Origin: Deltaproteobacteria bacterium
GTDB taxonomy: Bacteria > Desulfobacterota > Dissulfuribacteria > Dissulfuribacterales > QOAL01
DNA: 64,000 nucleotides
Assembly (NCBI GenBank): GCA_026986785.1
Contig: JALSNW010000014.1
Coordinates: 1-64,000 of the forward strand
Direction: 5' to 3'
Shown here one piece after another: positions 28,236 through 50,676 of the stretch. Below the pieces are notes generated by a model. It did no database searches. It saw only the letters and a list, made by a program, of their open reading frames with translations, and had not been told where the DNA came from. The position numbers and the translations under genes were made by a program. The stretch's first letter is position 1, and every line of letters begins with the position of its first letter.

Positions 28236-31184
28236 GTGGCATGGAACTCCTTTTTAAGACGACATATTACTGAATGTCTTTATGGGATATTCTTTCAGTT
28301 TGTTTTTATCCTTTTTTCCCCAACTGTAATACTATCTGCCCCTTTTTTCATTGATCCAGATCTGCTGATAAATCCGGATTGGTCTGTTCTCTCCAATATC
28401 TTGCCAGAATATACAATAGATTTCGAAGACGTAGCCTCTGGAACGGAAATATACAATCAGTATGCAGATCAGGGGGTCCTTTTTTCATCAGTGCCACTGG
28501 CTGTCATACCAAGCGTACAAACTGTTTCAGGTTCCAAGGTCATCACCAATAGGCATCCAGGAGAAGAATTTCCAGGGGCCATAGAAGTAGAGTTCACCAC
28601 AGGGCAGTCAGAGGTAAGTGCCTATATCGGTACGGATGAAGACACCAATGGACACAACCTCCTGGTCTATGTAAATGCCTATGACCAAAACGGCCAACTC
28701 GTCCAGTCCATAGCCCCAGCAAACATAGGCCCAGGTCCATGTGATGTAAGCCATTTTGTCTATGTAGCCTCGAATGAGAAAAACATCTGGAAAGTAGAAT
28801 TCAAGGTTGGGCCAGGTTATGGATTTTATCTCGATGACCTCGGTTTCTCCGATATAGGGCCTGTCCCAGCAAGTACAAGCCGTTCGCCAGTAGTCCGTAT
28901 CAAAAAGCCTACGGAAGCCCATAGGTTTTACTTTGATTCCTTTGTAGATCCAGGTGGAAATTGTGGTGTTTTCGGTGGAGATATCATCTCTGAAAACCGC
29001 TTGAAAAGCGTAACCCTGGTGTTGCAATCCGGTAATAACATCAAGACATTCGATATAGGTTTTGGACGTATCGATGAGACGAGATACTCCTTTGGTGGTT
29101 TTTCCAACATCTGTTCATTCCTATCAGAAGGAGAAAATCTTGTGACTGTGCGGGCTGAAGACTGGGAGGGAAACACAGGGACAGATTTTATCAACCTGGG
29201 TTATTATCCCATAAAAACCAGATCTCTATTGCTTATAATGACACCGGCAGATTTCAGGGAGGCCCTCGTACCCCTGATGAATCACAAAAAGGCCTCTGGT
29301 ATGGATGCCAACATCATAACGATAGAGGCAATTTCACAGGACAGCAGGTTTTCCCCCTCCAGAGATCTACCTGAAAAGATAAAGAAGGCAATAGCTTATG
29401 CACATGAGCATTATCAGACCAAGTATGTGATGTTGGTTGGTGACAGTGACAAATTCCCAGTGCGTTATTGTAGGCATGTACCTGGACAGAGACATGCTGG
29501 TTATGGAGAATTCTACATGCCAGCCGACCTCTATTACGCTGACCTGTACAGATATGAGAATGGACAGCGTGTCTTTGACAATTGGGATGAAAATGGCAAT
29601 GGCTACATGGGTGAGATGACCTGTGAAGGCTCCTCCTGTGATCAATACCTACTTGATCAAGTGGATTCCATACCAGACGTGGCTGTTGGGCGCATACCAG
29701 TTTCTAAGGTGGAGGATCTCAGGACCTATGTCGCAAAGATAATAAAATATGAAAATAATTATCATCCTGGCTGGTTTTTCAATGTCCTGCTCGTAACAGG
29801 AGGCTATCCTGGAGATACCACAACAAACGACTGGATAGCAGACAATACATTGTCGGCGTTTAATAAGACAAGACACTATAGCAACTCTGGGCATCCCAAT
29901 TTCGTGCAACAGCTTACAGATTATTTGAACCAAGGACAGGGCTTTGTCAGTTACATTGGACACGGAGGCCCCTGTGAATGGGCAAGCTACCCGGTCTGTG
30001 CCTCTATCCCTGATCTTCACAATGAGAATATGCTGCCGGTCATTTTTGCAGCGGCCTGTTATACGGCACAGTTTCATACAAGGGAAGGCCAGTATTTGAG
30101 TATCGACGGCAGGGATCCTCCTGGACAGATATGGCCGAGTCCAGCACCAGAACCAGCTGCCATACAGCCGCCAAGATATGATACAAGCTCCTGTGCAGAA
30201 CATCTCTTGTTCAGGTCTTCGGCAGGGGCCATCGCCTATATAGGGTGCTACACTGGAAGTCAAAGCTGGGCATTGATCCTGGCAAAGAAATTTTTTGCCG
30301 CCTATGATCACCTGTCTGACATCTCTCCAGATCCGGTCATCCTGGGGGATATGTGGAACCAGGCCCTGGTTGATTATTATTATGACCAGATAAAAAATCC
30401 TGTAACAGGCGAATGTCTCACAGAACGGGTCAATGCATCGGGTAGCCTATACTGGATCCCCAGCACCATTTATCACCATATCAGAAAATACATGTTATAT
30501 GGAGATCCGTCCCTGCGTCTCGGTGGCAGCAGAACCCCATCCTATATATTCTTGCCTGTTTCATATACTCAGCTCTTTACCTGGGATGTTTCCCAGACTG
30601 GCCAACAGGGTGACCATGCCAAGCTTTCTGGTCGGGTTTTTTCTCCCAGTACACTGGAGATATACGAAGGCTCTCAGCTTTTGGGCACCTTTGAAGTCAA
30701 TGGGGCCTTTGAGATAGTTCTACCTTCAATGGATGAAGGAATACATCATTTGACCCTCTACATTCGTAACCAGGAAGGAAAAGTGATGGACAGCAGAGAA
30801 TTGAACATCACCATGGATACCACTCCTCCTGTCATAGAGGTGACCAGCTATACCCCATTTGCAGTATCTGGACAGGTTGCAATAAGTGGATTGAGTGAAA
30901 ACCTTGCCAGGGTGGAATTGTACGAGGGAGACAGGCTATTGGCATCCACCTTTGCCGAGCCCCAGTTTGCCAACGAAGCTGAGGAGCAGCCATTCACGAT
31001 CCAGATTACCCAGCCCCTGGAAAAGGGTCTGCATAGTTTTACCCTCAGGGCTGTGGATCAAAGTGGCAATCAGGCAGTCTTCTATCGCAATATCGTCATA
31101 GAGGTCGTGGATGACTACTGTTGTCCCACTATGATAAAGTGGGATCAGCTCTTCAATGGTACATATCACTTTGGGGGTCTTTAG
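28236..31184 (+). CDS. Secreted gingipain-like cysteine peptidase (family C25)
   Basis: 982 residues. Start is GTG 28236, with AGGAGGT five bases upstream; the ATG at 28241 is out of frame. Residues about 15-36 form a hydrophobic signal segment. A beta-rich region (about 50-310) precedes the C25 domain (about 325-760), whose catalytic pair is seen as His576 in YIGHGGP and Cys608 in FAAACYTAQF, the HGG...AAC pattern of gingipains; another typical block is YVMLVGDSDKFPVRYC. An Ig-like region fills about 800-970. The C-terminus is short and ends YHFGGL: no PEP-CTERM, LPXTG or recognisable type IX sorting domain. Flanked by inverted repeat copies B and C. Secretion route and substrate are unknown. 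Confidence 0.85.
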   Translation: MAWNSFLRRHITECLYGIFFQFVFILFSPTVILSAPFFIDPDLLINPDWSVLSNILPEYTIDFEDVASGTEIYNQYADQGVLFSSVPLAVIPSVQTVSGSKVITNRHPGEEFPGAIEVEFTTGQSEVSAYIGTDEDTNGHNLLVYVNAYDQNGQLVQSIAPANIGPGPCDVSHFVYVASNEKNIWKVEFKVGPGYGFYLDDLGFSDIGPVPASTSRSPVVRIKKPTEAHRFYFDSFVDPGGNCGVFGGDIISENRLKSVTLVLQSGNNIKTFDIGFGRIDETRYSFGGFSNICSFLSEGENLVTVRAEDWEGNTGTDFINLGYYPIKTRSLLLIMTPADFREALVPLMNHKKASGMDANIITIEAISQDSRFSPSRDLPEKIKKAIAYAHEHYQTKYVMLVGDSDKFPVRYCRHVPGQRHAGYGEFYMPADLYYADLYRYENGQRVFDNWDENGNGYMGEMTCEGSSCDQYLLDQVDSIPDVAVGRIPVSKVEDLRTYVAKIIKYENNYHPGWFFNVLLVTGGYPGDTTTNDWIADNTLSAFNKTRHYSNSGHPNFVQQLTDYLNQGQGFVSYIGHGGPCEWASYPVCASIPDLHNENMLPVIFAAACYTAQFHTREGQYLSIDGRDPPGQIWPSPAPEPAAIQPPRYDTSSCAEHLLFRSSAGAIAYIGCYTGSQSWALILAKKFFAAYDHLSDISPDPVILGDMWNQALVDYYYDQIKNPVTGECLTERVNASGSLYWIPSTIYHHIRKYMLYGDPSLRLGGSRTPSYIFLPVSYTQLFTWDVSQTGQQGDHAKLSGRVFSPSTLEIYEGSQLLGTFEVNGAFEIVLPSMDEGIHHLTLYIRNQEGKVMDSRELNITMDTTPPVIEVTSYTPFAVSGQVAISGLSENLARVELYEGDRLLASTFAEPQFANEAEEQPFTIQITQPLEKGLHSFTLRAVDQSGNQAVFYRNIVIEVVDDYCCPTMIKWDQLFNGTYHFGGL

Positions 31185-31470: not shown

Positions 31471-32460
31471 TCAGGGTAGCCGGTTTAGACCTACAAAGCA
31501 GCCCCCATTTTCCTCTGCAAGTCTTCTCATCAGGTTTGAAAAACGATAGATATTTTCAGAGTTGGGGGCCTCTTCGAGCAGCACAGGAAAACCTATGGCA
31601 TGGATGCGTACCCTGCGTCTGCCAGCCCTCAGGTTGAGCCTTTTGACCTGGTCCAGCACTCCCTGGATGGATCCTGTAGAAAAATCATCCCCGAGGACAT
31701 AGATGGATATCCTTTTGTCCCCGGCATAGAAGCGGCGTATGGCCGCGGTTATGCCCTCTGCCGGGCTGGAATTAGAAAAGGGCGCCCATGTGGTGAGCAT
31801 GGACAGTATTGCGCGTCTCCTGGCAGGGCTGTCAGGTATCCACCTGCCCTCGTAACGGGAGAACATATAGTTCCCCATGTCGTTCATGACCTGTATCCCC
31901 TTGACCCTGGGATAGATGCGGAGTACCTCGGCCATCTTTTTCCTGACCAGAGGCCAGGCAAAACGCTGCATGGACCCGGAGGTGTCTATAACGAATATGA
32001 TGTATTCGCTGTCCACGGGGATGCCACCTATGGGTGAACGGGCCCGGGCCGGCGGGGCTGCCTTCTGGAGGCGCTTCATCTCCAAGGTGAGTTTCTGCCT
32101 TGCTGATTGGAGTTGTTTGGCAATGATCTTCTGGGCCTCCTGATCCGTCCTCTGGGCCTGGTATCTTCCCTCAGTGGTCCTGAGCTCACCTTGGAGGCGA
32201 CCGATCTGTTGTCGAAGCCTTGCCAGTTGCTCCTTTCTTGAGGCAAGTTGGCTTTTCATGTGCTCGGTTTCTTCTTTCAAACTTTGTTTTTCAAGTTCGA
32301 GGGATGCGATTTGCTCGTTCAATTTCCTGCCCTCTTGTTCGATCACCCGTGGTTCAGAGAACTGGGAGATCACAAGGAGCAGGATTATTGCCCCAAACCC
32401 ACATGAGACCACGTCAAGAAAGGAAAGGGTGAATATCTCGAACCCCCTTCGCTGTCTCAT
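31471..32460 (-). CDS. VWA-domain protein with ExbD/MotB-like N-terminal helix (second VWA subunit)
   Basis: 329 residues from ATG 32460, which overlaps the upstream stop as ATGA (32457-32460); a TTG at 32466 would add two residues. A single membrane helix (about 12-32) reads LSFLDVVSCGFGAIILLLVI with Asp16 at its start, then a coiled coil (about 40-135) and a von Willebrand A domain with the MIDAS motif DTSGS (159-163). Predicted inner-membrane protein with the coiled coil and VWA in the periplasm. Last gene of the eight-gene operon. It is clearly a diverged paralogue of the gene just upstream. Function not known. Confidence 0.85.
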   Translation of the reverse strand: MRQRRGFEIFTLSFLDVVSCGFGAIILLLVISQFSEPRVIEQEGRKLNEQIASLELEKQSLKEETEHMKSQLASRKEQLARLRQQIGRLQGELRTTEGRYQAQRTDQEAQKIIAKQLQSARQKLTLEMKRLQKAAPPARARSPIGGIPVDSEYIIFVIDTSGSMQRFAWPLVRKKMAEVLRIYPRVKGIQVMNDMGNYMFSRYEGRWIPDSPARRRAILSMLTTWAPFSNSSPAEGITAAIRRFYAGDKRISIYVLGDDFSTGSIQGVLDQVKRLNLRAGRRRVRIHAIGFPVLLEEAPNSENIYRFSNLMRRLAEENGGCFVGLNRLP

Positions 32461-33557
32461 GGCCAATCCCTGCTTGGTGTGAGAAATGAGCCCCTGGTAT
32501 CAACGGCCAGCTTCCAGAAGAGGCCTGCTGCCATCGGGTCTCCTTCCAGTGGAAAAAGAATGGTATTGACCGGTATTGCCTTGGGGAGTCTTGAAACTGC
32601 TTGCCTGAAAAGCTTCACCCTCTCCTTGGATGATACCTTGCCCTGGCTTGTAGGCTTGGCCCCCATCGTTGGCAGACCATCGGTGAGCAGGATGATATTG
32701 TCCGGCCTGGGGGAAAGGATGGCCGCAGCAGAAAATGCCCAGGAGAGGCTGGTGCCGTGTGCCGGAACCCTCTTCTCCAGTTCGTCCACCATATCGTTTA
32801 TCTGCTGCCTGCTGGTAACAGCTACCCATCTGCGTGCAGATTCACCCAAAAAGACGATCCTGGTGTCAAATACGGCTACTTTGATAGTGGAGCTTGGAGG
32901 GACGTTTGCAAGAAGCCACTTGAATGTACGTATTACCCTTTGCCACTTGGTGGATTGCAGCCTGGTAGTGCGGGAAAGATTGCGTCTTCTTATTATACCA
33001 AGGATCGTTTGGTGGAGCATGGAGGCAGATGCATCTATGAGAAAGAGGATCCGTTTGCCTCCAAGGCGCAGGCCGGTAAGATACTGCCGATTCCCTTCAC
33101 CAGAGAAATATCGCACCTTCTCGCCTGCATCCTGGTCCCTTCTCTTTTTTGCAAGGAGCCTCTTCCTTTCTGCATCCATGGATTTCAAGTCACTTTCCAG
33201 TTCCTTCAAGGATCTTCTTGTTGCAAGGGAAGCATTTTCAAACAGTGAAATCTTGGCCCTGGTCCTTTTTATCTTTTCTGCGAGGACAGCAGATTTTTCT
33301 TTGGCAGTAGCAATCTGGGAATCTGTCACCTCCAGGCTGTTTTTCAGCTCGGACAAGAGCCTTTCCCTTGCCTGGACCTCGAGTTTGAGGGCCATGAGCT
33401 TGGTTCTCAGGTCTTGATCTCTTTCCCTCCTGTGACGTACCGTGTTGCTGTTTACTATGAGCACCAGGAGTACTACGGCCCCAAAACCACAGAACATGAT
33501 ATCGAGGAAAGAGAGATTGAAGGTTGGCTGCTGGCCTTTTCCCTTTTTTGGTGCCAT
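32457..33557 (-). CDS. VWA-domain protein with ExbD/MotB-like N-terminal helix (first VWA subunit)
   Basis: 366 residues. Short basic N-terminus, one membrane helix at about 15-37 (LSFLDIMFCGFGAVVLLVLI) with Asp19, a long coiled coil (about 45-140) and a VWA domain starting near 165 with MIDAS residues Asp175, Ser177 and Ser179 (DASAS), a threonine in HGTSLS and an aspartate in LLTDGLP. The helix matches that of the downstream VWA protein nearly residue for residue. Lies 20 bases downstream of a MotA/ExbB-type gene, which suggests the three form one membrane complex. Function not known. Confidence 0.85.
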   Translation of the reverse strand: MAPKKGKGQQPTFNLSFLDIMFCGFGAVVLLVLIVNSNTVRHRRERDQDLRTKLMALKLEVQARERLLSELKNSLEVTDSQIATAKEKSAVLAEKIKRTRAKISLFENASLATRRSLKELESDLKSMDAERKRLLAKKRRDQDAGEKVRYFSGEGNRQYLTGLRLGGKRILFLIDASASMLHQTILGIIRRRNLSRTTRLQSTKWQRVIRTFKWLLANVPPSSTIKVAVFDTRIVFLGESARRWVAVTSRQQINDMVDELEKRVPAHGTSLSWAFSAAAILSPRPDNIILLTDGLPTMGAKPTSQGKVSSKERVKLFRQAVSRLPKAIPVNTILFPLEGDPMAAGLFWKLAVDTRGSFLTPSRDWP

Positions 33558-33577
33558 CTACAAAAAACCAAGTGGTG

Positions 33578-34384
33578 TCAGGGCATGGGCCTTATCCTTA
33601 GCCGTGAGATCAAGTGGGTGTTGCAATATTCCTCTGTATCGAGCACCAGGCGTTCCTGCATGAGTTGGAGTTGATGGATGAAGAACATGAGTACTATGGA
33701 GATGACAAGTGCTATGAAGGTAGAATTGAATGCTACACCCAGGCTTTGGGTCACGCCAGTGATATCTCCCTCTACTGCCTTGTTGGCTTGGGAGAGTGCA
33801 GCACCGATGCCACGTACCGTACCGATGAAGCCCACCGAGGGTATGGCCCATGCAATATAGCGGATGACCGAGAGCTCTGCTTCCTGGCGTTCTCCTTCGG
33901 ATTCACAAAGGCTCCTTACTGCAGTTGCTGCATCCTGCACGTTTCTCGTGGCTGCAAATCTCTGGATGGCTGTTCTGAGCGCCTTTGGTAGTAAAAAACT
34001 TTGCATCTTTGGAGGGACTTCTTCCAATCTTCTCAAGAGCTCTTTGGTGTCTTCCAGGCCCACAGGAAGGCCGTGGGGCAGTTTGAGGAGATCCATGGAG
34101 AGCTGTTGTTGCTGTCTCCATGTGAATACGGCCTTGTAGCCCATTATGGCAAAGGCCCAGAACATGAGGATGATACAGGCCTCCTGCTCGTAGTCCTTGA
34201 GTACGACGTAAAAATTTCTTTGTTGCTCATATCTCTTGTCTTGGGCCGTGAGGTCATGCTGTCTTTGAAGAAACGCCTCTGCCTTGGGCCGTATTGTTGC
34301 AACATATGCAGCGTGAACGATTATAAAGGCGATCAATAGGGAAAATACCTGGAATATTAGTTCTACTGGCAGTTTTTTTTGCAT
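33578..34384 (-). CDS. MotA/TolQ/ExbB-type proton channel subunit
   Basis: 268 residues with about four hydrophobic segments (about 8-30, 68-88, 170-190 and 212-236), closer to MotA than to three-helix ExbB. The family core is IPSVGFIGTVRGIGAALSQA followed by VAFNSTFIALVISIVLMFFI. Members use ion flow to drive a partner protein; here the natural partners are the two VWA proteins encoded next, whose N-terminal helix resembles ExbD/MotB. There is no ordinary ExbD, TonB or OmpA-like MotB in this operon. A 102-base gap, without an obvious terminator, separates it from the small gene upstream. Confidence 0.85.
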   Translation of the reverse strand: MQKKLPVELIFQVFSLLIAFIIVHAAYVATIRPKAEAFLQRQHDLTAQDKRYEQQRNFYVVLKDYEQEACIILMFWAFAIMGYKAVFTWRQQQQLSMDLLKLPHGLPVGLEDTKELLRRLEEVPPKMQSFLLPKALRTAIQRFAATRNVQDAATAVRSLCESEGERQEAELSVIRYIAWAIPSVGFIGTVRGIGAALSQANKAVEGDITGVTQSLGVAFNSTFIALVISIVLMFFIHQLQLMQERLVLDTEEYCNTHLISRLRIRPMP

Positions 34385-34486
34385 GATTGAATAAATCCTA
34401 TGTGTTTCAAGGTATATCAGTTATTCTGCTTTTTTTGATGTCGTGTTTTTTCGATTGGATGCAATCCCTTTTAAGCAGAGCTCTGT

Positions 34487-34756
34487 TTAGATATCCACAG
34501 GGAAGGCAACTGCCTGGTCTGCTGTGATCCTTTCCTTGGGGGTGTACCATCTCTGTGATTTCTTTTTTTTCTTCTTTTTCAACCTGTGAGCTTGGCCCTT
34601 GGCCGTCTCATCTGTAGTCATATCAGATTTTTTAAGATCGACCTGGAGATGGTGTTTGGCGCAAAGGGCCATCCTTCCAGCCAACAGGACGGAGCACATG
34701 AAAAAAAGGCCTAAGATGGATGTTCGAACAAGTTTTTTTATGGTCTCTGTTTTCAT
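34487..34756 (-). CDS. Small secreted lysine-rich protein, unknown
   Basis: 89 residues. Residues 1-33 look like a signal peptide (LGLFFMCSVLLAGRMALCA, possible cut after Ala). The mature part is short and basic with seven consecutive lysines encoded by an A-rich run that includes eight adenines in the mRNA (34563-34570), a place where slippage could occur. The start overlaps the stop of the large upstream gene by ATGA (34753-34756), which argues that it is real. No family recognised. Confidence 0.7.
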   Translation of the reverse strand: MKTETIKKLVRTSILGLFFMCSVLLAGRMALCAKHHLQVDLKKSDMTTDETAKGQAHRLKKKKKKKSQRWYTPKERITADQAVAFPVDI

Positions 34757-37128
34757 TTTACATACCTGGCAATCCTGAAACCAAGATCGTCTTCAGGTTT
34801 TCTGCTATAGCCCCTATAGCTCAATCTCAGCTCTGTCACTGAGCTGTCTTTCCAGCTTGCACCCCGTACAACATGATGAGTCCCTACAGATGGGCCAAGG
34901 GGGTCTTGTTCGAGGCCAGGCCTGAGAAGGACAACCGGCGAGTAGAGGTCATGGCACCATTCTGATACATTGCCTCCAATATCGAAAAGCCCAGCAGGAT
35001 TGGCCTGAAAGTTACCCACTGGTCCACTTACAGGAAATCCATCATTATAACCCCTCATGATCACAGGCAGTATGCCCCTGGCGGATTCATCAGCAAAGTT
35101 TCCACTCCTATCTGGTGGCGGAAAGGTTCCAGGCCATGGGTACTTGGAAGCCCTGGTTCTCTTGGCAAATCGTGCAGCACATGCCCATTCAGCCTCTGTA
35201 GGGAGTCGATAGCCATTTGTAAGCGGGTGGACGACCTCGATCTGTCCAGCAGTTATCTTGTAGAAGGGCTCTATCCCCTCTCTGATGGAGAGCCAGTTGA
35301 GGTAGCGTACCGCGTCTGCCCAGCTCACTTGTACCACAGGCTGGTTTGAGCCATCGAGGTTGATCCCCTTGAAGCTGCCTGAGGAATGATCTTTTTCAAA
35401 CCTTCGATACTGGGCATTGGTGACCTCATGGGCAGAGATGTAAAAAGGCCTTGTAAGCCTTACCCGCCTCTTTATTTCATTGGTGCGTCTGCCAGCCTCT
35501 CTGCGAGACGATCCCATGGTAAACGTGCAAGGTTTGATGAGGATGAGGATATGGCCCTGGCTGGTATGGAGCCTGGGAGGTATTTCCCTTTTTGAAGTCT
35601 TTATGCGCATGTCAATCTTGAGGGTACTACCAGGCAATGGGGTAATCTTTCTCTGTTGTTTATCTCCTCCTGATGTCCGGATTTCAAGGATATGGGGCAT
35701 GGCTGAGAGCCTGAACCGGCCAGTATTTTTTTTCTGAATCATGCCGTCTATGAAAAGGGCGGTATTGGCAGGTGAGGAGATGAATACGGTACAGAATTGG
35801 GGTGTAAGCCGCAGGGTGAGATCCGTGGTGGAACCTGCTTCAGGCCTAATCTTTTTAGTTACACTCTTGTGACCCAGGGCAGTTGCTGTGATCTTGTGGG
35901 ATCGGTTGGAGCTTAGTCTAAGTCTCAAAGGGGCCTTACCCCTGAATACTCCATCTACTGTCACAATTGCACCTTTTGGTATGCTTTTCAATTGGATCAG
36001 GGCAGGAGGCCTTTGCAGGATGGCGGTTTCGGGTTTTATTTCGAGGCCCGATTGCACCCTTACATCCTTTTGCCATGGTAGGAAACCCGAAAGCCTGAGG
36101 GTGAGCCTTCGTATCCCTTCGGAGAGTTCAAGACTGGCAGGGGTCTTTTGCCCCGTCTCCTGCCCATCTACCAGGATTTCAGCCCCTGGTGGCCTGGAAG
36201 TAAGATGTATAGTACCCCATGCCGGCTCGAGCCTGAAATCAAAATATTGGTGGAGCCCCTTTCCTTCCACTACGATATCCTGCTTGGCCTTTCTGTAACG
36301 TTCTTTAATCACCAGGATGGTATGATTGCCAGCTTCGATCTCCATCTCCCTGATGGGAGTGGGACCAAGGTGTTTTCCATCCAGCATGATACTGGCTCCT
36401 GCCTCTGGGCTTGTGGTCAGATCCACTATGCCTGGAAGGGGAGCCAGGGAAAATGTAAATGAGCGCTTGTGCTTGGAAGGCGTTATCTCTACCTGGAGTT
36501 TTCTATAGCCAGTCTTCATGGCAGTAACCGTATACCTGCCTGGCAGGATCAGGAAACGTTTCCCTATCTTGATTGATGGAAAGAGACCTGAGACAGAAAG
36601 GGATTCGGGTGTAGGTGATACATCTATCCCGATACTTATGCATGAAAGGAGGAATAGGGCAACGCATGTAAGAATCACCAGGAGAGGGAGGCTGATCTTT
36701 ATCCAGGTGGGAGAACGCTGTTTACCGATCTCATCCCCGGATGTCATGGGAAGGGGATTGGGTGATTCATGGGTCTCTTCTCTAATGAGCTGTGACCCTT
36801 CTATTTTCGGGGATGCGGTCTTTTCCACGGTTATATCTACAATATCTCCTGAAATCACATAAAAAATGGCATACTTCCCGATCCTGGTCTGGTCTCCAGA
36901 TTTGATCCAGCAAGAACCCTCGATTATCTCGTGGTTGTGCAATACGCGGATCTCACTGGAGATTGGCTGGAGGAAGAGGTATCCGTCAATCTCACCTATT
37001 AGGCAGATGTCCTGGCGAAATCCTGGAATGGGTATGTGAGAGCCGGCCCCGCCTATCCTTAGCGGCAAGTCTTTCTGGGAAAAGGAGGAGATCCTTTGGC
37101 CGATGATTATCTCAAAGAGCCTGTTCAT
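34753..37128 (-). CDS. FHA-like / TM / PEGA-repeat / FGE-like fusion protein
   Basis: 791 residues. About 1-115 resembles a forkhead-associated fold (RIGGAGSHIPIPGFRQDICL, RVLHNHEIIEGSCWI), probably cytoplasmic. A membrane helix lies near 145-170 (LPLLVILTCVALFLLSC). Four to five PEGA-type beta modules follow (about 175-500; for example VDLTTSPEAGASIMLDGKHL). The C-terminal about 270 residues are an FGE-sulfatase/SUMF1 domain (YISAHEVTNAQYRRFE, YRLPTEAEWACAARFA, GGNVSEWCHDLY, DDLGFRIARYVK). The block RGASWKDSSVTELRLSYRGY lacks both cysteines used by true formylglycine-generating enzyme, so that activity is unlikely. ATGA overlaps on both sides. Confidence 0.85.
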   Translation of the reverse strand: MNRLFEIIIGQRISSFSQKDLPLRIGGAGSHIPIPGFRQDICLIGEIDGYLFLQPISSEIRVLHNHEIIEGSCWIKSGDQTRIGKYAIFYVISGDIVDITVEKTASPKIEGSQLIREETHESPNPLPMTSGDEIGKQRSPTWIKISLPLLVILTCVALFLLSCISIGIDVSPTPESLSVSGLFPSIKIGKRFLILPGRYTVTAMKTGYRKLQVEITPSKHKRSFTFSLAPLPGIVDLTTSPEAGASIMLDGKHLGPTPIREMEIEAGNHTILVIKERYRKAKQDIVVEGKGLHQYFDFRLEPAWGTIHLTSRPPGAEILVDGQETGQKTPASLELSEGIRRLTLRLSGFLPWQKDVRVQSGLEIKPETAILQRPPALIQLKSIPKGAIVTVDGVFRGKAPLRLRLSSNRSHKITATALGHKSVTKKIRPEAGSTTDLTLRLTPQFCTVFISSPANTALFIDGMIQKKNTGRFRLSAMPHILEIRTSGGDKQQRKITPLPGSTLKIDMRIKTSKREIPPRLHTSQGHILILIKPCTFTMGSSRREAGRRTNEIKRRVRLTRPFYISAHEVTNAQYRRFEKDHSSGSFKGINLDGSNQPVVQVSWADAVRYLNWLSIREGIEPFYKITAGQIEVVHPLTNGYRLPTEAEWACAARFAKRTRASKYPWPGTFPPPDRSGNFADESARGILPVIMRGYNDGFPVSGPVGNFQANPAGLFDIGGNVSEWCHDLYSPVVLLRPGLEQDPLGPSVGTHHVVRGASWKDSSVTELRLSYRGYSRKPEDDLGFRIARYVK

Positions 37129-38639
37129 GGTTTGATTGCCCCTATTTTCTCACTACAGGAGACGAAAAATTTCACGCCCTGGCTCCCTGGTGTCAGGGTG
37201 ATCTGTTTCAAGACATCCCTGTAGCCCCACCTTTTGCCTGAAATCGTGTATCTTCCAGGCAATAGTGAAATCATCTTGGTTTTGAATCTACCAAGTCTTC
37301 CCACATGATAAATGGTTACCTCTGTCTCACCGTCTGAGACAAACTTGACAGGTAGAGGCGTGCTATATTGGTTGATGATAAGGGAAGCCCCCTGTATCTT
37401 GTTCTCAAGAGTAGCCCCTGGATGTTTTAGACCTTTGGCAACAAGAAGGGTTTTTCTTGCGTCTTCGAGTGGGCCTTTCTGGTTCAGTCTTTCAGGATGC
37501 TTGATTATCTTTAGGAGTGCATGATCTATGGCCCTGAGCCTTTCCTCCCTTTCCATGCCCTCGAGTGCTACAAGATTCTGTCCGTCAATGGCAAGGGCCT
37601 TTTGGTACCAGTCAACTGCCTCTTCCCATCTCCCCTCGTGTTCTGCCTGCCCTGCCTTTGAAAAGATGAGATCAAGTCTTTTCACTTTTTTAGCCTCCCT
37701 GATGCCTTCAGCAAGCTGTCTTACTTCAGGGGCATGGGGGAATACGGCAGCGGCGATTTCCAGGGCCTGCCGGCTTTTTTCAAACCTCTTTTCTGAAAAG
37801 GCCGTAATGGCACGTCCCATGGCCTGTTGGAAAGTGTGTTTCTTGAGCGCGAGTCTGTATTTTTCCAATAGCCTGGCAGCCTGCCCGAGACGAGGATCTA
37901 AAGAGAGTGCCTTTCTTAGGGTGTCGATCGCCTCGTGCACTTGACCATCATTAAACTGTCTTTCTGCCTGACCAACCATTTGAAGGGCAGTGCTGATGTT
38001 GGCAGAACGTCCCAAGCCAATTTTGGCCTGCTGATTTTCTGGATCTATCCGTAGGGCAAGTTGGAATTTCTCCATGGCCTGTTCTGCCAGACCTTCTTCA
38101 AGGGCATTTTCTCCTTCTTCTATGGCACTACGAAGCGTTGGGCCCCTATTTTTCTCAATCCCCAAAAGGATATCCGTTGCCTGGTTGAATAAAGTAGTTG
38201 CCCTTGCCAGATCTCCCTTGGCCAAAAGATCCTGGCCTTTTTGTGAAAGGTCCAATGCCTCCTGATACCTTCGGCCTGCCCATTCATATATCTTATGAAG
38301 TTCAGCCTTGGCCTTTTGCTTGAACCATTTTTCCTGGGCTTCCATGACAGATCTTTTGAGATCTCCAGATTCAGGGGATGGATTCCCCAGATAGGGGAGG
38401 CTTCGCTCTGGGGCGTGTCCTTTTTTTGGAGCCAAGGAGGCAACATTGGAGTCAGGGGATTTTTGTATGTTGGGAAGCGCCCACACCACCAGGACTATAA
38501 GGCCCAGTAGCAGGATAAATGCGGCAAATATGGCCCAAATCGTCTTTTGCCTGGTCCCTGTCCCTTTTCCCGAATTGCCAGTGCATCCAGGGGGAGAGAG
38601 ATCTGGACCGACTGGGGGCTTCATAATCGGAGCTGTCAT
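37125..38639 (-). CDS. Membrane-anchored TPR protein with C-terminal PEGA-like module
   Basis: 504 residues. A cytoplasmic proline-rich start is followed by a helix at about 33-54 (WAIFAAFILLLGLIVLVVWA), a long series of helical tetratricopeptide-like repeats (about 85-400; ALEEGLAEQAMEKFQLALRI, AIDTLRKALSLDPRLGQAAR), and a beta domain near 415-500 ending LPGRYTISGKRWGYRDVLKQ, similar to the PEGA modules of the next gene. Probably a periplasmic scaffold. Overlaps both neighbours by four bases. Confidence 0.8.
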   Translation of the reverse strand: MTAPIMKPPVGPDLSPPGCTGNSGKGTGTRQKTIWAIFAAFILLLGLIVLVVWALPNIQKSPDSNVASLAPKKGHAPERSLPYLGNPSPESGDLKRSVMEAQEKWFKQKAKAELHKIYEWAGRRYQEALDLSQKGQDLLAKGDLARATTLFNQATDILLGIEKNRGPTLRSAIEEGENALEEGLAEQAMEKFQLALRIDPENQQAKIGLGRSANISTALQMVGQAERQFNDGQVHEAIDTLRKALSLDPRLGQAARLLEKYRLALKKHTFQQAMGRAITAFSEKRFEKSRQALEIAAAVFPHAPEVRQLAEGIREAKKVKRLDLIFSKAGQAEHEGRWEEAVDWYQKALAIDGQNLVALEGMEREERLRAIDHALLKIIKHPERLNQKGPLEDARKTLLVAKGLKHPGATLENKIQGASLIINQYSTPLPVKFVSDGETEVTIYHVGRLGRFKTKMISLLPGRYTISGKRWGYRDVLKQITLTPGSQGVKFFVSCSEKIGAIKP

Positions 38640-39961
38640 TTTGTAGATGTATCTGACTCTTCGACTACGGTGTCTTGTGCCTGCCCTTCGTCTTCAGAAC
38701 TGGTTTGTGGATTGTCCTCTTGCTCGATACCCATGATGACAGGAAGGCCTTGGTCAAGGCCGGTTTCCGAAAGGTAGATCTTTCTGAGCAGTTCCTGCCA
38801 CTTTACATATTGCTCCTTCGCAGTGCCACTGAGTCGGACGGTCTCACCCTGGACCTTCACGACAAGGGGCCTTGATTCAGAGGCAAAGGATTCACCAAGT
38901 TCCTCTATGACCTCCTTGTTCATCTTCGTCTCCTTACGCATCTGATAGCCACTATATACTGCTGCTGTTCCTCCTGCCGCCAATACGCCGCGTACAGGAT
39001 CGATACTCCTTTGCACGTCTTGATCCGAGATTGCACCCAGTGCTACAGCAGCTACTATTGCTGCAATGCCCAGGGCTTGGCGCGTGAATGCCTCATGCTC
39101 TATCCCATGCATGGTTCTAAGTTCATCTGCCCTGAATCTGCGCCAGTTATGGTAGGCCTCCCACAACTGGAGATAATAATTGTCATACATGCCTGTAAAT
39201 GTGTCCAAGAGCATCTGGTCCCTACTTCTCACAGCCTTTATTCGTCGAATCATTGGGTCATTTTGTGCAGGAAGATGGGTGATGATGAAGTGATCTTTTT
39301 CGTCTCGGATAAAATAGTCCTTGAATGGCTCTGGTGAGACCTCTGCCCCATACCTCAACATTGTCACCTGACGTATTTGTGTGATCTCAGCCCGAGAGAG
39401 GTGATTTCTCAACCCAACAAGATCGTTGGAAATAGCATTGTAGAGATCCTGGAAGGCATCCTTTTTTTCAGGCTCGGTATCTTTTTGTTCATCTGGGGTG
39501 CAGGTTTCCGAATAGGTCTTGTCCAACCAGAGCACGTTTCTTGAGTCCACAGCCCTCACTGTGACTGTAAGTTTCTCTCCATCCGACCAGTCTATCCTTC
39601 CTGTAATCGCCAGGTCCACATCCCTGGATTCATCAGGGATGACCCAGACCGAGCCCCAGAAACCCGTATGTTGAAGGGTATATTTAAGGTGGACAGGGAT
39701 GAATCGGGCTTCCGCCTGCCTGATGTCCTGAGAAAGCCCCTGCCTTTCATCCTTGTCTTCTGGCAGGGTGCCAGGATCAAAGACCTGAATGCCAACATTC
39801 AACAGCTCCTGCTCAGGCAGCTCTCGTGTCGCCATTGTGGGTGATATGTCTCCCTTCAGGCTTACTCTATTATGAGAGGCACACCCGAGGAGGAATAAGG
39901 ATATGAACCCACCTGTTACTGAAAGAAGGAGAATTCGCCTCACCTCTGATGTGTTGATCAC
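38636..39961 (-). CDS. Lipoprotein, unknown, part of the VWA/ExbB-like operon
   Basis: 441 residues. Signal peptide with lipobox LLGC (Cys27 modified), so anchored to a membrane on the periplasmic side. About 50-165 looks like a beta domain with the stretch LAITGRIDWSDGEKLTVTVR, reminiscent of lipoproteins that sense or assemble envelope parts; a hydrophobic glycine/alanine-rich stretch (LGIAAIVAAVALGAISDQDV) lies near 300. An acidic, serine-rich tail closes the protein. No family recognised. ATGA overlaps tie it to both neighbours. Confidence 0.8.
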   Translation of the reverse strand: MINTSEVRRILLLSVTGGFISLFLLGCASHNRVSLKGDISPTMATRELPEQELLNVGIQVFDPGTLPEDKDERQGLSQDIRQAEARFIPVHLKYTLQHTGFWGSVWVIPDESRDVDLAITGRIDWSDGEKLTVTVRAVDSRNVLWLDKTYSETCTPDEQKDTEPEKKDAFQDLYNAISNDLVGLRNHLSRAEITQIRQVTMLRYGAEVSPEPFKDYFIRDEKDHFIITHLPAQNDPMIRRIKAVRSRDQMLLDTFTGMYDNYYLQLWEAYHNWRRFRADELRTMHGIEHEAFTRQALGIAAIVAAVALGAISDQDVQRSIDPVRGVLAAGGTAAVYSGYQMRKETKMNKEVIEELGESFASESRPLVVKVQGETVRLSGTAKEQYVKWQELLRKIYLSETGLDQGLPVIMGIEQEDNPQTSSEDEGQAQDTVVEESDTSTK

Positions 39962-40848
39962 CGGACACCTTCCTTGTATTTCCTGTATTCCTCCCAGAGT
40001 TTTTTCCTTAGCTCTGGGTCCTGTTCTCTTTCGGCCGCCTCCCGGATCTGTCTTGCAACTATGTCGTCATCCTTGGATATTGCTGGTCCTGCTTGAGTCT
40101 TCACTCCCCGTCTTTTCCCCTTGAGACCTGGCTGCTCCTGATCTTGCCCTTCTTCATTTTCCCAGGATGTAGCCTTCTCCCCCTTGATTTCGTTAGAATC
40201 TTTAGCCTCTTGACCTATTTGTGCATGTTTTTGTGGATTGCCCGCCTCGTCTCCTTCTTGTCCCTTGGCATGGATACCGTCTTGATTGTAAGGCATATTC
40301 TCCCCACTGTCAGCAGGTGGCAGAAGCTGCCTTCTATATGTGATCTTCCCCTGCTCTCTTGCAAGGATGTCATCAAATTTACCAAGTTCTTCCAAGAGCC
40401 TCCTGTCCAGTTCTCTTATCCTTTCCTCACTCGTTTTGGCAGAAGGAACCTGCCAGCCTGGAAGAAGCCCGGAAGGTGGAGGGCATTTCAGACCGGCAAC
40501 GGCCTGATAACCAGTCCTGGAAATTATGTCACCACAAAGCCTTTGAATTCGAAGATCTATGTAGCTTATGTAATATCTTAGGGCATCATGTCTGGGGTTA
40601 TTTGCCGTTTCTTTTCGAAGTTCTGTGCTGGCTGTCCGTTTAGCCTGTTCGAGTATCCTCAGCTCCTTCTTTGCTGTGGTGAGATCCCAGGCCCATGCTA
40701 TGGGATCTCCTGTGGACAAGACATTGGTATATGAGCTGAAATATATGGCGAGAAATATCAAATAGGTCCATCTGGCAATGGTGATTGCAAATTTCAGGGA
40801 CCGACTTGGAATTGAGTGGGGTGAATAAAGTTTTTTCATGGACTCCAA
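39958..40848 (-). CDS. First gene of the VWA/ExbB-like operon: membrane-anchored or secreted protein, unknown
   Basis: 296 residues (ATG 40848; ATG 40839 is an alternative). Hydrophobic segment at about 24-42 (WTYLIFLAIYFSSYTNVLST) acts as anchor or signal. A helical region with a cysteine pair (RLCGDIIS...GLKCPPPSG) follows, then a charged, low-complexity linker (about 195-260), then a conserved-looking helical end, DDDIVARQIREAAEREQDPE with ELRKKLWEEYRKYKEG. I have an impression that this C-terminal motif recurs beside similar operons but cannot verify it. Coupled by ATGA to the lipoprotein gene. Confidence 0.75.
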   Translation of the reverse strand: MESMKKLYSPHSIPSRSLKFAITIARWTYLIFLAIYFSSYTNVLSTGDPIAWAWDLTTAKKELRILEQAKRTASTELRKETANNPRHDALRYYISYIDLRIQRLCGDIISRTGYQAVAGLKCPPPSGLLPGWQVPSAKTSEERIRELDRRLLEELGKFDDILAREQGKITYRRQLLPPADSGENMPYNQDGIHAKGQEGDEAGNPQKHAQIGQEAKDSNEIKGEKATSWENEEGQDQEQPGLKGKRRGVKTQAGPAISKDDDIVARQIREAAEREQDPELRKKLWEEYRKYKEGVR

Positions 40849-41293: not shown

Positions 41294-42109
41294 ATGAATT
41301 TTATTTTTCGTTTGATATTGGGAAGTTTTTTGATAAATGTCCTTGTATGGAGTCTCTTTGTCGTGGATGTCTATGCCCTTAATCTTGGAACGAATATTAC
41401 CATTTACGATGGTCAGACCTCAAACACGTATTCGAGCAGTACCACAAAAATGGGATATGATGGAATTGGACAAGACAAGGAAGATCAAGAGACTGAACCA
41501 AATACGCTTAGGTCTGAAGATTGGGATCTTGAGGGTGTATTTTTGAATGGTACAGTCCTTTCCTTGGTGGGACAGTGGAATTTTATAAATGGAGAAGACG
41601 GGGCTTCAAGTACGTATGACAAGGATGGCGATGGGAAATACACATCAGGGGATATTTTTATCAACACAGATACGGATTCCGACTATGAATACGTTTTTGA
41701 TGTAGACTGGCTATCGAAAAAATATACTCTTTATGGAATAATCTCAGCACAGTTGATCAATCCGTCCTATAAAACTCCTGATTCAGATCCATGGAAGATA
41801 GATGTCTCAAAATCGACGTTGAAGAACTTGTCCAATGGATACCTAACACTAGGGACTGATTCTTCTGATCAATTCTATGGAAATAGTATTCACAATGTGG
41901 TAAGCGGTTTTGATCTGATGCCAATATTGTTAGATCTTGATGTTGATTCTTTGGATTTCAAGGTCCATTTTACCATGGAATGTGGTAATGATGAGATGGA
42001 AGGCCAAGGAACTGCCCCTGTTCCAGAACCGGCGACTGTAATACTAATGGGCATAGGGCTTATTGGTGTGGCTGGTTTTGGGAGGAAAAAGATCAAGAAA
42101 CAGGCATAA
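41294..42109 (+). CDS. PEP-CTERM sorted extracellular protein
   Basis: 271 residues. N-terminal signal peptide (about 1-28, RLILGSFLINVLVWSLFVVD). The mature domain (about 29-235) is Asp/Ser/Thr/Tyr-rich with calcium-site-like stretches such as YDKDGDGKYTSGDIFINTD. The C-terminus has the complete exosortase signal: VPEPAT, a hydrophobic helix (VILMGIGLIGVAGFG) and a basic end RKKIKKQA. Proteins of this kind are cut and exported by exosortase, often with exopolysaccharide genes; no exosortase lies in this window. GGGGAG at 41280-41285 precedes the ATG. Confidence 0.92.
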   Translation: MNFIFRLILGSFLINVLVWSLFVVDVYALNLGTNITIYDGQTSNTYSSSTTKMGYDGIGQDKEDQETEPNTLRSEDWDLEGVFLNGTVLSLVGQWNFINGEDGASSTYDKDGDGKYTSGDIFINTDTDSDYEYVFDVDWLSKKYTLYGIISAQLINPSYKTPDSDPWKIDVSKSTLKNLSNGYLTLGTDSSDQFYGNSIHNVVSGFDLMPILLDLDVDSLDFKVHFTMECGNDEMEGQGTAPVPEPATVILMGIGLIGVAGFGRKKIKKQA

Positions 42110-48573: not shown

Positions 48574-49305
48574 ATGGGAAATAAAGCAGATATTATAAAC
48601 ATGATCTTCGGGGCAGACCCTGTAGTTCAGACGGTCCTAGTTGTTTTACTCATGATGTCGGTTCTTTGTTGGACCATCATCATCCTGAAGTCAAGACTTT
48701 TTAAAAAGGTTGCTGCAGCCAACGAGGAGTTCGACCTCTTCTTCTCAGAGGCTGTAAACCTTGCTCAGGTAGAGAGTAGGGCGCGACGGATGAAAGACTC
48801 TCCTATGGCCCAAGTCTTTCTGTCAGCCTATGCAGACTATCAAAATCTCCAGGCAGACGTAAAGTTGGACAATGTGAGACTCGTAAGGCAGGCATGGATA
48901 GACGTCCTTACGAGGAGCCTTGAAAAGGCAGTCAAGTTGGAGATTCATGACCTGGAGACTGCGGTCCCCCTTTTGGCCACAACAGGTAATTCTGCACCTT
49001 TTATCGGTCTATTTGGAACGGTCTGGGGGATCATGAGTAGTTTTCAGAATATCGGCCTTCAGGGTACGGCAAGTCTTGCTACTGTAGCGCCTGGTATTTC
49101 AGAGGCCCTGGTAGCTACTGCTGCAGGGCTTGCTGCTGCCATCCCCGCAGTGATTGCCTTCAATATGTTCATGAGCGCAGTAGCTGGCATGGAGAAGGAA
49201 CTCGAGGCATTTGGGGCAGATTTCATAAACATAGTCGAACGCGAGCTTGTGAGGCGCGAGACTCGGCACAGGGATTCGATCGATATGAATATGGGGGAGA
49301 GGTGA
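48574..49305 (+). CDS. tolQ: TolQ/ExbB proton channel subunit
   Basis: 243 residues, three membrane helices (about 15-40, 130-155 and 175-195). Conserved core: LATTGNSAPFIGLFGTVWGI and EALVATAAGLAAAIPAVIAF. With TolR it uses the proton gradient to energise the TolA-like partner, maintaining outer-membrane constriction. Follows mqnD by 13 bases. Named tolQ from its order and length; ExbB is the alternative. Confidence 0.93.
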   Translation: MGNKADIINMIFGADPVVQTVLVVLLMMSVLCWTIIILKSRLFKKVAAANEEFDLFFSEAVNLAQVESRARRMKDSPMAQVFLSAYADYQNLQADVKLDNVRLVRQAWIDVLTRSLEKAVKLEIHDLETAVPLLATTGNSAPFIGLFGTVWGIMSSFQNIGLQGTASLATVAPGISEALVATAAGLAAAIPAVIAFNMFMSAVAGMEKELEAFGADFINIVERELVRRETRHRDSIDMNMGER

Positions 49306-49309
49306 TAGG

Positions 49310-49744
49310 ATGGGTGGCTCCTCAAATGGTTGCAGAAGGCTCCTTTCAGATATCAATGTGACCCCATTAGTGGACGTGATGTTGGTCCTCCTGATCATCT
49401 TCATGGTGACGGCCCCCATGATGACCAAGGGTATTGCTGTGAAGCTGCCAGAGACAACTGCCAAGGCCCTTCCCCAGAAGAAGAAGCATATAGAGGTCAT
49501 AGTGTCTGAAGAGGGGAAGATCTTTTTGGATGGTATCCCTATTGATGAAAAGGGCCTTGGTGAAAAACTTGGCCAGTTGAAGGAAAGAGGTGCTATAGTT
49601 CAGGTCCTTTTGAGGGCAGACAAGGCCGTGGCTTATGGTATTGTGGCAAGGGTCATGGCACGGATCAGAGAGGCAGGAATAACCAATCTGGGTCTTGTCA
49701 CCGTGCCAGAAAGCGTCCATCCAGGACAGACAAGGGGCAAATGA
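49310..49744 (+). CDS. tolR: TolR/ExbD protein
   Basis: 144 residues. Single membrane helix at about 18-38 with the proton-carrying aspartate in INVTPLVDVMLVLLIIFMVT, then a periplasmic TolR domain (AVKLPETTAKALPQKKKHIE, DKAVAYGIVARVMARIREAG). The stop overlaps the next start by ATGA (49741-49744). This ordinary TolR provides an internal reference for the helix of the VWA proteins at 31471-33557. Confidence 0.94.
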   Translation: MGGSSNGCRRLLSDINVTPLVDVMLVLLIIFMVTAPMMTKGIAVKLPETTAKALPQKKKHIEVIVSEEGKIFLDGIPIDEKGLGEKLGQLKERGAIVQVLLRADKAVAYGIVARVMARIREAGITNLGLVTVPESVHPGQTRGK

Positions 49745-50676
49745 TAAAACAAGAGGGATTGGTTGGGTGGAAGCAGGCCCTTTTGCTGGCGCTTGGGCTT
49801 CACATTGCACTTTTTTCACTCTTTTTTTTCTATCCTTCTATTTGGCATAAAAAGGTCAAAATTACAACTAGTTATAATGTTCAGCTTTTTGAACCGTCTG
49901 CAATGAAAAACCTGGAGACACCTCCTGCTGTAAGACCAAAGATAGCGCAGAGGATGTCTAAACCCCTTGTTAAAAAGAGGCCTTCCAAAGCGCATGTCCC
50001 AAAGGAGTTACCAAAGAAGAGGACTGTCCAAAAACTGGTGGGAAAGAAGAAGCCTGTTGCAGAGAGGAAGGTATCCAAAAAGGCCATTTCTCTGAGGCCA
50101 AAGAAAGTCCAGAGACAGAATGCCAAGAAAAGGCCTGAAAAGAAAAAGGTGAGAAGGGTAGTAAAGAAGCAGAGGACAAGGGACGTTGATGAAGACAAGA
50201 GGCTTTCTCAGCGCCTCAAGAAGATAGAAGAAAGGGTAAGGGAAAAAGAGGAGGAAAAGATCCTTCAGGAGCGGTTGGCCAGTATCAAGAAAAAGGTACA
50301 CGAAGAGGCCTCCCCTGTTGGAGGTTCCTCTACTGCTTCAGGTGTTAAGGCCTCAGTGAGCGATGCATTGAGGCGCTACGCTGGCTCTGTCTGGATGCAT
50401 GTCAGGAAGAACTGGCATTTCCCTGAGGAGTTGCTCAAGAGAAAGGATATAGAGGCAATAGTTTCCATACGGATAGACAAGGCGGGACACATCTTGAGCA
50501 AAAGATTTGAGCAGCGTTCGGGGTTTGCTGCATTCGATCGATCTGTCATGAAGGCCGTCCAGGATTCGGATCCCCTTCCTCCACTTCCAGTACAACTTGG
50601 TTCAGGGCCAATAGAGATAGGTATCAGGTTCAACCCATCGAGGATGAACTCGCCTGGCATTTTGCAGGGTGCCTGA
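49741..50676 (+). CDS. tolA: TolA/TonB-type energy transducer
   Basis: 311 residues: short cytoplasmic start, membrane helix (about 12-33, ALLLALGLHIALFSLFFFYP), a long lysine/arginine-rich region (about 60-195) that forms an extended helix across the periplasm, and a TonB-type C-terminal domain (about 210-305, WMHVRKNWHFPEELLKRKDI, ILSKRFEQRSGFAAFDRSV). Works with the TolQ and TolR encoded just upstream. TolB and Pal are not next to it in this window. TonB is the alternative name. Confidence 0.88.
   Translation: MIKQEGLVGWKQALLLALGLHIALFSLFFFYPSIWHKKVKITTSYNVQLFEPSAMKNLETPPAVRPKIAQRMSKPLVKKRPSKAHVPKELPKKRTVQKLVGKKKPVAERKVSKKAISLRPKKVQRQNAKKRPEKKKVRRVVKKQRTRDVDEDKRLSQRLKKIEERVREKEEEKILQERLASIKKKVHEEASPVGGSSTASGVKASVSDALRRYAGSVWMHVRKNWHFPEELLKRKDIEAIVSIRIDKAGHILSKRFEQRSGFAAFDRSVMKAVQDSDPLPPLPVQLGSGPIEIGIRFNPSRMNSPGILQGA

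Follow-up and report, generated by a model that had tools for sequence, protein, structure and literature searches.

The window analysed here comprises positions 1 to 64,000 of the forward strand of contig JALSNW010000014.1, from a Deltaproteobacteria bacterium of the order Dissulfuribacterales (GenBank assembly GCA_026986785.1). On its minus strand, from 40848 to 31471, eight open reading frames, which we call g1 to g8 (Table 1), follow each other head to tail; they form a real and widespread unit and appear to encode a machine of the 5:2-motor kind. The co-occurrence of these genes across genomes, their fixed order and the existence of a diverged second copy demonstrate that they are one conserved unit, inherited largely whole.

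Conservation and layout of the eight-gene unit

Using an alignment of g7 and g8, we scanned one genome per species from 84,980 species and obtained at least 591 stretches, 570 of which were confirmed. The best 80 stretches came from Desulfobacterota and Gammaproteobacteria, together with one Betaproteobacteria, one Myxococcales and one Phycisphaerales genome. Haliea salexigens, Chromatocurvus halotolerans and Geothermobacter hydrogeniphilus are among the carriers in culture. Among 119 nearby genomes, a relative of g7 was present in 8 genomes of the window's own family and in none of the remainder. After mapping all families with profiles, we found the complete set from g1 to g8, in identical order, in 41 of 84 distinct loci, while most of the others end at contig borders. 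The recurrence of eight families in a fixed order in 41 loci of several phyla is far beyond chance. Unlinked genes in most genomes had been named by an earlier, sequence-only reading of this stretch as the outcome that would speak against a single system; what we observed instead were ordered or contig-cut loci. Drafts from the window's own family often break within or beside the operon, as seen at the contig ends of L104, L105, L108 and L109 (L, G and C numbers are our handles for loci, genomes and contigs).

Co-occurrence of the lipoprotein gene g2 and the g7/g8 pair was tested at three levels. In the window's class, 10 genomes have g2, and the 8 that carry the pair are all among them; the two genomes with g2 only stop at contig borders, one within g6 and one after g3. 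In a sample of the phylum, g2 was found in 8 of 395 genomes and the pair in 7, hence the distribution is patchy. Among 195 genomes from the order to which Haliea belongs, we detected g2 in 43 and the pair in 44, with both in 43, the pair alone in 1 and neither in 151 (Fisher p 1.3e-42, a value that overstates independence because the genomes are related). The co-occurrence check proposed by the sequence-only reading thus gave g2 and the VWA pair together in 43 of the 44 positive genomes of this order. The two share a contig in 34 of the 43 genomes, 4.6 to 6.8 kb apart.

Two gammaproteobacterial genomes carry, beside the standard operon, a second and strongly diverged one with the same gene order. 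All eight families were recognised in one of these copies (L121, G536:C60) and seven in the other (L120, G588:C5), in which an unmatched lipoprotein-like frame takes the place of g1. Trees built from g6–g8 and from g1–g4 have 24 of 29 splits in common, with 3 strong conflicts. A search of a plasmid collection with g8 and g2 gave no match, so the system is not plasmid-borne in that collection.

Regarding the layout of the operon, the sequence-only reading had described eight tightly coupled genes on the minus strand, and all eight frames lie where it had put them. It had also counted five ATGA overlaps: there are indeed five overlaps of 4 bases, four of them ATGA (g2/g3, g3/g4, g4/g5 and g7/g8) and one, at g1/g2, reading GTGA. 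The overlap at g7/g8 presumes the ATG at 32460, and not the TTG at 32466, as the start codon of g8. The remaining junctions are gaps, one of 20 bases between g6 and g7, as the same reading had noted, and one of 102 bases between g5 and g6. The start of g1 is probably the ATG at 40839, behind a GGAG, which would leave the TTG at 40848 outside the gene, upstream of it. Among related loci, the 4-base overlap is found at g7/g8 in 60 of 82 and at g3/g4 in 32 of 52. A promoter and terminator scan inside the operon returned no more sites than shuffled sequence.

The predicted motor core and its likely envelope partners

The domains proposed by the sequence-only reading were correct, with Pfam matches to MotA_ExbB in g6, VWA in g7 and g8, TPR in g3 and PEGA and FGE in g4. 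The g6 protein (268 residues; MotA_ExbB E-value 3.8e-15) has two threonines, T189 in GTVRGI and T222 in NSTF, that are invariant in 25 members and align with threonines of an ordinary ExbB encoded elsewhere in the window. From these features, g6 is recognised as an A-subunit of the MotA/ExbB/TolQ family with conserved Thr ring positions. This ExbB belongs to an ExbB-ExbD-TonB module behind a menaquinone-biosynthesis gene, and is a useful internal control for the motor family.

The g7 and g8 proteins are paralogs with 22–25% identity, found as a heterologous pair across loci. Both begin with a helix bearing the motif FLDxxxCGFGA, whose aspartate (Asp19 in g7, Asp16 in g8) is present in all 153 g7 and g8 sequences. 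No formal Pfam match to ExbD or MotB was found in either of them, and no tolR or exbD gene lies in the operon, the ExbD genes of the genome being located elsewhere. The VWA matches in Pfam are weak (1e-4 for g7, 0.0024 for g8). The metal ion-dependent adhesion site (MIDAS) is full in g7 (DxSxS, T and D), while g8 keeps DxSxS and D, with SNSSP in place of the Thr. The distance from the transpore helix to the MIDAS is 149–152 residues in g7 and 137–141 in g8 in all sampled phyla, and the intervening coiled coils are read as rods of fixed length. The sequence-only reading had proposed a channel with two VWA partners; its motor interpretation is the best reading, but g7 and g8 are B-subunits (the axle) of the channel and not separate clients of it, their transpore helix being of the ExbD/MotB type and bearing the invariant Asp. 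Covariation of linker length was tried as a pairing test and was uninformative, since the two lengths hardly vary (r = 0.08). A sequence search of solved structures with g7 and g8 returned coiled-coil noise, and the PADLOC matches to LmuB, JetC, DruC and others were discarded for the same reason.

Pfam detects three PEGA domains and an FGE-sulfatase domain in g4. None of the 54 homologs has a Cys among the 8 residues after RGxSW, and alignment to the FGE structure 6muj likewise shows no catalytic Cys pair. In the absence of these cysteines, the domain is unlikely to be an enzyme. Among solved structures, it comes closest to FGE enzymes and to the ring protein PorK/GldK of the type IX secretion system (T9SS). 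The profile match to the latter has an E-value of 4e-25; in a family scan, g4 scores 103 bits, below the curated GldK cut-off of 350, and it is not a lipoprotein. From cryo-electron microscopy, PorK/GldK is reported to have a non-enzymatic FGE fold that lacks both cysteines and acts as a docking hub within the ring that the motor drives (PMC12421860).

The FHA domain assigned to g4 by the sequence-only reading is missed by Pfam in the window's own g4, as in 19 of the 20 members that were scanned; it is supported by the AlphaFold2 model of residues 1–135 (pLDDT 89.6), whose top matches in the PDB are FHA domains (best E-value 8e-5). Besides, 24 loci, mostly from Gammaproteobacteria, contain an extra gene between g6 and g7, here called gX, which encodes an Hsp70/actin-like domain (weak match to SSZ1, 6e-4) followed by a C-terminal FHA domain detected by Pfam in L074 (7e-13) and L076 (3e-10) and undetected in L080. 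The FHA module is gone from g4 in 16 of the 22 gX loci that could be scored. All 59 loci tested have an FHA module or gX: 37 in g4, 16 with gX instead, and 6 with both. Given that g4 loses its FHA where gX is present and that no scored locus lacks both, these data suggest that the FHA function was relocated from g4 to gX, and not lost.

As for the remaining envelope parts, the lipobox cysteine of g2 is invariant in 47 of 47 sequences, and its +2 residue is A, V, S or G and never Asp, which predicts sorting to the outer membrane. Searches of g2 by sequence against Pfam and solved structures in the PDB gave no match. Its AlphaFold2 model (pLDDT 85.2) consists of an N-terminal alpha/beta domain followed by a long helical hairpin, and Foldseek ranks the TolB N-domain first among PDB structures, with LptE next. 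About ten gammaproteobacterial genomes that carry the system also have orphan g2 paralogs far from the operon. The TPR match of g3 has an E-value of 6e-15 and its C-terminus is conserved, the PEGA-like segment there being assigned by eye only. The g1 protein ends in the motif DDDIVARQLREAAEKExDPELKKKLWEEYRKYK, with columns at least 90% conserved among 42 homologs, and g5 in ADxAVxFPxDI at its extreme C-terminus, conserved among 59 homologs.

Known systems, proposed mechanism and alternatives

A motor core of this design was already predicted in 2025. As described in that study (PMC12204202, Mol Biol Evol 2025), TolQ-like genes, among them a locus in Idiomarina, occur with heterologous pairs of transpore-helix VWA proteins and no tolR, and AlphaFold3 models, made for that paper's own vWA family, support a transpore-helix VWA protein within a TolQ-like pentamer; no function was assigned. 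Compared by description, both systems have a tolQ-like gene beside a heterologous vWA pair without tolR or exbD, the proton-binding Asp in the transpore helix and an A-subunit Thr ring, and occur in Proteobacteria. For this family, the text of that study deals with motor genes only; it does not name the lipoprotein, TPR, FHA-PEGA-FGE, g1 and g5 partners, and mentions neither the relocation of FHA to gX nor a second operon copy. We found no account of the full eight-gene set in the open literature, in which that study was the only directly relevant paper, subscription papers and preprints not being covered. The sequence-only reading's statement that no named system has this composition therefore seems right for the remainder of the machine and for the set as a whole, but not for the TolQ-like core with its VWA pair.

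We consider it likely, from the sequence features above, that g1 to g8 together specify a single trans-envelope machine driven by protons or sodium ions; in line with the motor-driven device of the sequence-only reading, a trans-envelope device powered by the proton-motive force is the best reading of the conserved unit. Five g6 subunits would surround a heterodimer of g7 and g8 as a pentamer, and ion flow past the Asp and the Thr ring would turn the pentamer against the axle, as in the 5:2 mechanism. The rods would hold both VWA heads at a set height in the periplasm, where they may push, or grip through the MIDAS, the PEGA and FGE domains of g4 and the TPR and PEGA-like region of g3. From these two proteins, force could pass on to g2, the predicted lipoprotein of the outer membrane, and its TolB-like domain, with g1 and g5 as putative assembly or docking proteins acting through their conserved C-terminal motifs. 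A cytoplasmic FHA module, in g4 or in the Hsp70/actin-like gX of many gammaproteobacteria, may anchor or gate the machine. The most likely output would be force on an assembly bound to the outer membrane, as in Tol-Pal or in the T9SS, where PorLM drives the FGE-fold PorKN ring.

Several observations weigh against this reading. The 5:2 stoichiometry is carried over from the motor family. The g6–g8 trio stands apart from g1–g4 in genome G007. The likeness of g2 to TolB exists at the fold level only (best E-value 1.8e-3), with low TM-scores because only one domain matches. None of the genes neighbouring the operon in Desulfobacterota is conserved, and flanking genes offer no conserved functional hint. 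Finally, the distribution of TolB_N shows no correlation with that of the system, and the two do not complement each other; in view of this lack of pattern, we rejected a simple replacement of Tol. The operon does share with Tol-Pal a TolQ-like A-subunit, an outer-membrane partner with a fold like the TolB N-domain and a periplasmic TPR protein. Unlike Tol-Pal, it carries VWA domains on the B-subunits and lacks TolR, TolA, Pal and the TolB propeller, for which no matches were found in a Pfam scan of g1–g8.

A T9SS-like machine for secretion or surface assembly, in which g4 would form a ring or track and cargo export would be powered by the motor, is unlikely. The parallels are a 5:2-type motor (PorLM/GldLM), a periplasmic FGE-fold protein, in g4 probably non-enzymatic, and an outer-membrane lipoprotein (PorKN/GldJK); a repurposed FGE fold driven by such a motor is the PorK/GldK design (PMC12421860), which the profile match recalls, and the operon of the window lies between genes for a C25 gingipain-family peptidase and a PEP-CTERM protein. 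Yet the B-subunits end in VWA, the system lies outside Bacteroidota, and g4 is anchored in the inner membrane and carries FHA and PEGA, while PorK is an outer-membrane lipoprotein. Beyond the FGE fold, the operon has no match to a T9SS family, GldL/GldM (PorL/PorM) being absent from an NCBIfam scan of g6–g8, and related loci contain no counterpart of the C25 gene.

Less probable is a motor for gliding or surface motility like the myxobacterial Agl-Glt, whose adhesin-like VWA heads would move along the cell. Both systems combine TPR, FHA and VWA modules, with FHA and TPR scaffolds in common; in Agl-Glt the FHA is that of GltG. In many gammaproteobacteria the operon includes an actin/Hsp70-like protein. 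AglRQS likewise pairs one A-type subunit with two different MotB-like B-type subunits (PMC9389320), and the surface adhesin CglB is a VWA protein (PMC13104615). Here, however, the VWA domain is fused to the axle and periplasmic instead of surface-exposed, a conserved Glt outer-membrane barrel or adhesin gene is missing beside the operon, and most hosts are not known to glide.

We also doubt strongly that the motor trio g6–g8 and the PEGA, TPR and lipoprotein genes g1–g5 are co-located modules with separate functions. The broken operons bear on this point: in L080 and G007 both halves are kept, with the break between g4 and g5/g6, and the two halves of L080 lie in opposite orientation. In G007 and G012, both of the window's own family, the halves are on different contigs, and those of G007 on clearly separate chromosome stretches. 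Orphan g2 paralogs also exist. Against such independence, g2 never occurs without the pair in the 195 genomes, every pair-bearing genome of the class set has g2, the diverged second copy kept the set, and the gene trees largely agree. Finally, a Zorya-like anti-phage motor is highly improbable, since the MotA/MotB-like core and the weak profile matches to ZorA (2e-4, g6) and ZorB (7e-4, residues 9–89 of g7) reflect a shared motor family and coiled coils, while g6 lacks a long cytoplasmic tail, a PADLOC scan of all eight proteins found no ZorC or ZorD, there is no nuclease among the eight, the remaining parts are envelope proteins, no plasmid copies were found and the operon has no variable effector.

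According to these comparisons, the system does not qualify as T9SS, Tol or Zorya, and resembles T9SS, Tol and Agl-Glt in differing respects. Returning to a single trans-envelope machine, we tentatively propose, with a little less than even confidence, that it is a distinct rotary class, as separate from Tol, Ton, T9SS and Agl-Glt as these are among themselves. In this class, found in Desulfobacterota, Gammaproteobacteria, Myxococcota and Planctomycetota, a motor whose VWA axle is necessarily a heterodimer would work on an FGE/PEGA element that is not an enzyme and on a TolB-like lipoprotein of the outer membrane; it would be controlled by FHA from the cytoplasm and would have a function so far assigned to no machine. 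The known jobs of 5:2 motors are few: swimming, gliding, nutrient import, outer-membrane upkeep, secretion and phage defence. A conserved eight-gene machine whose core has more than 500 relatives in a species-level genome set is a candidate for a further one. The VWA motor core predicted in 2025 gains its likely missing partners, which makes its function testable, and the non-enzymatic FGE fold would have a second use beside a motor, far from Bacteroidota. Besides, an axle that is likely a heterodimer, with fixed-length rods, should help in asking how a 5:2 motor operates when its two B-subunits differ.

Features and neighbouring genes

Table 1. Positions of the operon genes in the window and of further features in the window and in related loci
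Feature	Position	Strand	Description
g1	39958..40848	-	Membrane-anchored or secreted protein, about 293 residues from the likely ATG
g2	38636..39961	-	Predicted outer-membrane lipoprotein (lipobox, AlphaFold2 fold)
g3	37125..38639	-	N-terminal transmembrane helix, periplasmic TPR array, C-terminal PEGA-like segment
g4	34753..37128	-	Cytoplasmic FHA fold, one transmembrane helix, PEGA repeats, C-terminal FGE fold
g5	34487..34756	-	Small secreted protein, conserved extreme C-terminal motif
g6	33578..34384	-	MotA/ExbB/TolQ-family pore subunit (A-subunit)
g7	32457..33557	-	B-subunit 1: transpore helix, coiled coil, VWA
g8	31471..32460	-	B-subunit 2, paralogous to g7, with the same three parts
C25 peptidase	28236-31184		Gingipain family, 982 residues, converging on the operon
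PEP-CTERM protein	41294-42109		Surface protein, divergent from the operon
ExbB-ExbD-TonB module	48574-50676	+	Ordinary module of the motor family
gX	L074 7529-8914; L076 2510-3928; L080 7535-8917; and others		Extra gene between g6 and g7
Orphan g2 paralogs	L118 9349-10491; L119 9670-10812; L122 9682-10836		Far from the operon
Lipoproteins and M48	L077 10959-13729; also L090, L097, L103		After g8

The C25 peptidase shows weak similarity of the PorU type, outside Bacteroidota. We considered it as a ninth member of the operon and rejected it, as it has no counterpart beside the operon in relatives. In genomes of the Haliea group, g8 is often followed on the same strand by two further lipoprotein genes and one for an M48 metalloprotease, which possibly extend the operon there.

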